This document shows positions 60,920 through 61,035 of a DNA stretch of 64,000 bases, one piece after another (position 1 is the first letter of the stretch; each line of letters begins with the position of its first letter). A program made the translations under genes and the position numbers. The stretch is from assembly GCF_017526105.1 (NCBI RefSeq), contig NZ_CP071839.1, positions 4,332,001 through 4,396,000 of the forward strand, in the 5' to 3' direction. The notes below the pieces were generated by a model. That model was given only the letters and a program-made list of their open reading frames with translations. It searched no databases and was not told where the DNA came from. The stretch comes from Streptomyces cyanogenus. GTDB lineage: Bacteria > Actinomycetota > Actinomycetes > Streptomycetales > Streptomycetaceae.

Positions 60920-61035
60920 CGGAGGATGCACGGATCGAACGTGCGCGGGCTCTCCAGGCCCGACCACGACTCGCTTGTGCCGGAACAAGCCGGTGCACAG
61001 CGCAAGCCGGTGCCTTACCACTCGGCCAATCCTCC
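60920..61035 (-). tRNA. atypical serine-class tRNA-like gene with enlarged anticodon region
   Basis: 116 nt. The 7-bp acceptor stem GGAGGAT/ATCCTCC, D-arm GCCGAGTGGTAAGGC, a long variable-arm hairpin CGGGC-CTGGAGA-GCCCG and T-arm GCACG-TTCGATC-CGTGC are all canonical for tRNA-Ser. Between D-arm and variable arm lie 49 nt instead of about 19, with no standard 5-bp/7-nt anticodon arm. This stretch contains CACCGGCTTG twice, 17 nt apart. Alternatively CTGGAGA is a Ser GGA anticodon loop, but then no variable loop remains and base 37 is G. It is either a decayed tRNA-Ser(GGA) or a novel tRNA-like RNA. CCA is not encoded. Confidence 0.55.

Follow-up and report, generated by a model that had tools for sequence, protein, structure and literature searches.

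What does a bacterium do with a serine tRNA that has lost its anticodon? The question is raised by a gene near the end of the window, a 64,000-nucleotide stretch of Streptomyces cyanogenus DNA whose first letter is position 1 of the coordinates used here. tRNA genes that lack an anticodon tend to be taken for debris or are overlooked by tRNA finders, and the original prediction left three options for this one: a non-decoding serylated RNA, a tRNA with a new fold, or a fresh pseudogene. Comparison with related loci best supports a non-decoding, presumably serylated RNA and speaks against a fresh pseudogene, so that a gene of the window type probably gives a working RNA whose task is not codon reading. 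The specific reading developed below, to which a probability of roughly 55% is given, is that of a functional non-decoding RNA derived from tRNA-Ser, which would be induced by stress from a WblC-type promoter and charged by seryl-tRNA synthetase (SerRS).

A serine tRNA body without an anticodon

The gene and its main parts are the following.

60920–61035, minus strand: tRNA-Ser-like RNA, G1 to discriminator G73, no encoded CCA (Rfam tRNA 41.3 bits; outer 51 nt 97% identical in 40 species)
60928–60944, minus strand: T-arm GCACG-TTCGATC-CGTGC (two-sided A-U/G-C change retained)
60946–60962, minus strand: long variable arm, class II, serine type (4-bp stem, 100% of cells paired in 40 species)
60965–61010, minus strand: extended arm replacing the anticodon arm, with a 9-bp stem, a second inner hairpin and no anticodon (pair counts in the 40-sequence alignment)
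60986–60995, minus strand: second copy of CACCGGCTTG, a lineage-specific 10-nt insertion in the loop (comparison with loci L202 and L216)

The good tRNA-Ser outer parts described originally are all present on the minus strand from 61035 to 60920, and a serine-class cloverleaf is recognizable in the 7-bp acceptor stem, 3-bp D-arm, 5-bp T-arm and long variable arm. Infernal with the Rfam tRNA model (RF00005) gave the gene 41.3 bits over a cut-off of 29, with an E-value of 2e-7 for the region alone and 7.9e-7 genome-wide, which is the lowest score of any long-arm tRNA in this Streptomyces genome of 8.77 Mb. In a permissive Rfam scan of the gene and its leader, no model other than tRNA reached the cut-off. 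ARAGORN, run on the window, did not call the gene, and it detected none of five extended-arm forms tried. The same program called a tRNA-Asp at 30935–31029 that finds no support in the Rfam tRNA model and is probably false. Elsewhere in the genome, two equal tRNA hits of 39.8 bits, its weakest, lie about 92 kb apart (G000:C1:5240461-5240530 and 5332057-5332126).

The absence of a normal anticodon arm was also borne out: in place of a 5-bp stem with a 7-nt loop and anticodon stands a stem-loop of about 46 nt (61010–60965), whose stem of 8–9 bp carries no anticodon loop. Serine-type bodies that depart from the cloverleaf are known in tRNASec and the allo-tRNAs, which have altered acceptor/T-arm lengths (8/5, 8/4 or 9/3) and keep their anticodon, whereas the Streptomyces gene has a regular 7/5 arrangement and an altered anticodon arm (PMC7609411). 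The same genome holds regular tRNA-Ser genes for GCU (window 17402–17496), UGA (38206–38293), CGA and GGA, the last of which the original prediction had proposed to look for. The gene under study is thus a fifth of serine type, and dispensable for codon reading.

The extended arm and its age

Loci read individually and a scan of GTDB species genomes together yielded 40 distinct extended sequences. All of them fold in the manner of the window arm, with a stem of about 8–9 bp that prolongs the normal anticodon stem, retains the 27:44 pair and leaves position 43 bulged. Standard pairs occupy 98.6% of the arm cells in the alignment, the arm helix shows two-sided changes at three pairs, and the structure as a whole has 29 two-sided cells, a count reached in none of 500 shuffles. 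The loop mostly begins with CUGUGUU. Little or no variation is seen in the acceptor stem, the D-arm and most of the T-arm; mean identity between species over the outer 51 nt is 97%, compared with 53% for the 50 nt that follow the gene, where shuffled sequence gives 50%. On this comparative evidence, selection has maintained the extended arm as an RNA structure.

The internal duplication noted originally is real, with CACCGGCTTG at 61012–61003 and again at 60995–60986, and the repeat extends to 11 nt (GCACCGGCTTG) with a period of 17 nt. Among extended-arm genes, the window gene has its nearest relatives, judged by the leader, in L202, whose leader is about 96% identical, and L216. The loop of L202 reads CUGUG-UUCCG-CACAG and that of L216 is the same or a close variant, so that both close to a short loop; the window arm is an arm of this type plus ten extra bases (CACCGGCUUG) that fold into the inner hairpin. 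Because L202 and L216 already lack the anticodon, the duplication is a late detail and not the cause of its loss.

A decaying pseudogene, whether fresh from the duplication or old, is therefore highly improbable, and for the family as a whole is already contradicted. The window's own arm does carry a recent 10-nt duplication, and true decay occurs in other genomes (L132, L169 and L246). Those decayed copies look plainly different from the conserved forms, while the relaxed constraint of a decaying gene is not seen in a body that stays 97% identical beside a spacer at random level. The anticodon-less arm is old and common to 40 species, it shows compensatory changes, and it is accompanied by an intact upstream reading frame and promoter, described below.

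A family at one locus in Streptomyces

The neighbourhood of the gene was defined by tblastn synteny.

58372–59646, plus strand: serS, convergent neighbour (identified by sequence and position)
59637–60440, plus strand: cof-type HAD hydrolase, conserved neighbour
61624–62343, minus strand: ABC-transporter permease, conserved neighbour upstream

A search with a 117-nt query and 100 relatives showed that related genes in Streptomyces share this position, between cof and the permease, with serS beyond cof. The original prediction pointed to the proximity of serS; the neighbourhood is indeed conserved, but serS is convergent and forms a separate transcription unit. A 25-nt pattern from the 5' half of the gene was found in 158 of 393 Streptomyces genomes, one copy each and at the serS–cof locus, and in none of 15 genomes from other genera of the order. 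In twenty genomes without the leader hairpin H3, the cof locus held no tRNA of this family. One class-level match, L052, was rejected as an unrelated tRNA.

Among 127 loci read, 98 carry a GCU anticodon arm, 20 the extended arm, six a 9-nt form (TTGNNTCAA) and one a GCC anticodon, with two decayed. The extended form was seen in 32 records of a strict-pattern scan of GTDB species genomes, and its bearers include S. echinatus, S. coeruleorubidus, S. lincolnensis, S. djakartensis, S. curacoi and S. resistomycificus. That relatives might carry a standard tRNA-Ser here had been named as grounds for doubting the gene: the GCU form does occur, but so does the extended form, scattered among close relatives. 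The discriminator G73 is present in every locus. A complete decoding loop is kept in 89 of the 98 GCU forms, from which it follows that decoding matters in the species that carry them.

Some loci fit neither main type neatly. A third arm form, GGCTTG-NNN-CAAGCC, in L036, L074, L092, L144, L147 and L158 can close to a stem of 7–8 bp with a 3-nt loop (GCT, GTT, ACT or ACC) and no U33, and is probably non-decoding as well. L170 (genome G419) places the loop TTGCCGA, with a GCC (glycine) anticodon, on a serine-type body, and would mistranslate if it were charged with serine and used. Within the seemingly normal group, G37 replaces A37 in L117, L129, L134, L137 and L154 and in L042 and L148, two of the seven also having C33, and these GCU forms are doubtful decoders of AGY.

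The presence of real GCU tRNAs in the family might suggest that the extended forms also act in translation in some unusual way, for example by shifted or expanded codon reading through the loop of the extended arm, and active tRNAs with 4-bp anticodon stems or other non-canonical anticodon arms are known (PMC13092985, PMC7609411). This is very unlikely here, as the loop is shifted about 4 bp outward from its normal place and shows no anticodon-like conservation; in L202 and L216 it is short and closed, and in the window it is filled by the second hairpin.

Repeated exchange of the arm

The extended form was mapped on a tree of the flanks, built from cof and permease codons (two genes, 555 columns), and requires about 15 changes, at least eight of them forced by well-supported branches. 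A single origin by descent, with the extended arm in one clade, was rejected (AU p 9e-5) on this tree of only 555 columns and two genes. The pair L078, TTGC[GCTGTGTTGAATCAGAAGCGAGTC]GTGG, and L138, TTGC[TAAGCC]GTGG, is nearly identical in leader, body and downstream sequence and differs in the arm alone, with divergence starting exactly inside the anticodon (TTGC/T). Since such near-identical sister loci differ only there, the parts that face SerRS match those of the GCU form. L131 and L047, another such pair, have even a lineage-specific variable loop and a 27:44 G-C pair in common. L085 and L086 are a further near-identical pair with the exchange limited to the anticodon arm. No donor copy beyond chance was found elsewhere in the genome, either for the extended insert (26 genomes) or for the GCU arm (11 genomes), and the simplest conjecture for the route is recombination over short tracts between close relatives. 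The recurrence of the exchange means that body and leader function with either arm.

The breakpoint within the anticodon also invites the thought that the insert is an intron, or is otherwise removed after transcription so as to restore a GCU tRNA. Yet no simple excision from the extended sequences gives TTGCTAA, and the flanking stem is continuous and covarying; this scarcely credible reading was dropped on structure. We know of no bacterial tRNA intron of such a size.

Restriction of the repeated exchange to the anticodon arm is likewise what would be seen if the GCU form supplied AGY decoding in stress and the arm were exchanged wherever anticodon-cutting toxins attack, yielding a nuclease-proof form. 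In Mycobacterium abscessus, resistance pathways are known to be activated by a toxin with a single cleavage site in tRNA-Ser (PMC10287673). An RNA without an anticodon cannot make up for lost decoding, and this explanation is very unlikely.

A WblC-like promoter

Upstream of the gene and its leader lie these promoter elements.

61244–61249, minus strand: −10 element CAGAGT (fits NANNNT, spacer 17)
61267–61272, minus strand: −35 element TGGCGC (fits TKGMNN of WblC promoters)
61276–61281, minus strand: AT-rich TTTATT, 3 nt upstream of the −35 element, at the position of the WblC site (93% A+T in 111 loci vs 30% regionally)

The consensus at the locus is an AT-rich hexamer, 3 nt, TGGCNN, 17–18 nt and CA[CG]AGT. 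Scored as an AT-rich site, 3 nt, TKGMNN, a spacer of 16–19 nt and a −10 element NANNNT, this layout like that of WblC/WhiB7 promoters was found in 111 of 127 loci and in 1 of 127 shuffled ones. It resembles the WblC-activated promoters of S. coelicolor, reported as GAAAWY-N3-TKGMNN-N16-19-TANNNT (PMC7157823), in its hexamer, its 3-nt gap, TKGMNN, the 17–18 nt spacer and NANNNT. The full GAAAWY is present in nine loci only, and the window hexamer matches three of its six positions. The S. coelicolor regulon responds to antibiotics that target translation and contains tRNAs (six tRNA genes), small RNAs and wblC itself, attenuated by an upstream open reading frame (uORF) (PMC7157823). The tRNA-Ser-like locus is a predicted member, from its promoter sequence, and no description of an anticodon-less form was found in the open-access papers searched.

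A structured leader with a serine-rich reading frame

Between promoter and tRNA, the leader is a conserved unit made up of a uORF and four pairings.

61122–61184, minus strand: uORF MSMHGSAPSSRQGSPRPAPE, ending in a stop codon; AGU is codon 6 (61169–61167), AGC-UCC are codons 9–10 and AGC is codon 14 (intact in 123 of 127 loci with the tRNA)
61155–61195, minus strand: H1 hairpin, in which the ribosome-binding region (61195–61185) pairs with uORF codons 7–10 (61165–61155) (two-sided changes)
61087–61149, minus strand: P2, long-range pairing of GGGCAG (61149–61144, within the uORF) with CUGCCC (61092–61087) (RNAalifold, 100 leaders)
61100–61134, minus strand: hairpin over the uORF stop codon, GGCUCCGGAG..CUCCGUGGAGCC (by eye)
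61040–61086, minus strand: H3 hairpin GGGGCGGYC-GCUUCGAG-CACGCGA..UCGCGUG-GRCCGCCC, ending 4 nt before tRNA G1 (occurs also without the tRNA)

The uORF has a ribosome-binding site and 20 codons with the consensus M-S-M-H-G-S-T-S-S-S-R-Q-G-S-P-R-R-A-P-E. At one of its serine codons, 117 of 122 loci have AGU, a codon that accounts for just 2 of the 96 serines in the neighbouring genes; among extended-arm loci it was scored in 38 of 40, the exceptions being one shifted position and one misread frame. Pairing in H1 does not account for this conservation, because AGU sits in the H1 loop. H1 itself covaries at two pairs (G-C 52 / C-G 39; A-U 46 / G-C 28 / G-U 26). P2 has pair probabilities of 0.92–1.0 in RNAalifold on 100 leaders, one pair being A-U in 65 and G-C in 19, and the stop-codon hairpin shows, by eye, matching changes on both sides, as in L078 (GACUCCGGUG/CACCGUCGAGUC).

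A leader reading frame rich in the codons of one amino acid, followed by hairpins and often without a T-run, is also a feature of the Streptomyces attenuators alaL, thrL, trpL2 and leuL2, which precede synthetase genes (PMC8079986). The present leader differs in having a tRNA gene behind it and no consistent alternative hairpin, and no leader peptide ahead of a tRNA gene was found in the open-access papers searched. Constrained folding of 74 loci with a ribosome placed at four positions (among them AGU, codons 9–10 and the stop) gave an H3 response that varied by species without a common pattern, nor was any mutually exclusive terminator/antiterminator switch consistent across species. A classical attenuator is not claimed, since the effect of a stalled ribosome on H3 differs from species to species.

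The H3 motif also stands at the same locus in genomes that have no tRNA there. Where the tRNA is present, 123 of 127 loci have an intact uORF, as do 6 of 14 leaders without it (Fisher 6e-8, one false locus, L242, included); the automatic scoring overlooks L192 and L251 and takes L242, which is a coding match, for a leader, and by eye about 8 of 18 tRNA-less leaders are intact. On these counts the uORF tends to disappear where the tRNA is lost, and some tRNA-less leaders still pair though their frame is gone. In L237 (G020), the tRNA is cleanly lost behind a window-like promoter, uORF and H3. At the locus in L236, L238 and L243, all that remains is a promoter of the GAAAAC type and H3, with CCCCTT after it, a remnant resembling a small RNA that ends in a terminator; each is a candidate WblC-driven small RNA of roughly 80–100 nt. 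The persistence of H3 leaders without a tRNA argues for an independent role of the leader RNA and for H3 as a possible end of the transcript; the tRNA could then be an accessory of the leader.

The last thought can be taken further. The tRNA body may be a processing device, in which the cut by RNase P makes the 3' end of a functional upstream RNA running from the uORF to H3; any body would then suffice, and the anticodon would be free to change. The main support is this same persistence, with H3 followed in some such genomes by a T-rich, terminator-like end, and the interchangeable arms and the mere 4 nt between H3 and G1 fit as well. RNase P alone, however, needs neither an invariant stem in the long variable arm nor G73 in all loci, the uORF decays together with the tRNA, and the decoding loop is complete in most GCU forms, all of which makes a processing device unlikely, though it deserves to be kept in mind.

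A proposed role off the ribosome

The window-type gene is thus most likely a translation-stress RNA that does not decode and is charged by SerRS, where charging, induction and function are inferred. A WblC/WhiB7-type promoter would be switched on when translation is hindered and would yield a short transcript with, in order, the structured leader bearing the serine-rich uORF, H3 and the tRNA-Ser body. RNase P would free the body and the CCA enzyme complete its end, after which SerRS would charge it with serine. The features that SerRS reads are the long variable arm, the acceptor end and G73; the anticodon is not among them, and charging is likely both for this reason and because the GCU sister loci have the same body. 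With a hairpin of 8–9 bp in place of the anticodon arm, the charged RNA could not read codons and would act off the mRNA, at a level that may be tuned by how efficiently the AGU and AGC codons of the uORF are translated. What such an RNA would do can be suggested weakly at best: it might donate its seryl group in a non-ribosomal reaction, or serve as a ligand of SerRS or of an elongation factor.

The closest known system is tRNAOther of Bacillus cereus, a pseudo-tRNA made within a longer regulated RNA and linked to a genomic island and iron control (PMC3399842). With no anticodon and a long leader, the Streptomyces gene would likewise be a tRNA-like element outside translation within a longer RNA. 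The two differ in that the Streptomyces gene occupies a core-genome locus in dozens of species and has a serine-type body, a swappable arm, a uORF leader and a WblC-like promoter. Nothing fitting was found in the open-access literature on Streptomyces tRNA-Ser with leader peptides or on anticodon-less serylated RNAs.

A broader proposal, tentative and given rather less credence than the reading of the single gene, is that these genes form a dedicated class: serine-charged RNAs without an anticodon, induced by stress through WblC, tuned by a serine uORF and acting off the ribosome, with two interchangeable alleles at one locus across Streptomyces. A conserved family in which the arm switches between decoding and non-decoding forms would allow the non-decoding roles of a charged tRNA to be asked about directly, and the antibiotic-stress programme of Streptomyces would gain a tRNA gene preceded by a leader reading frame.
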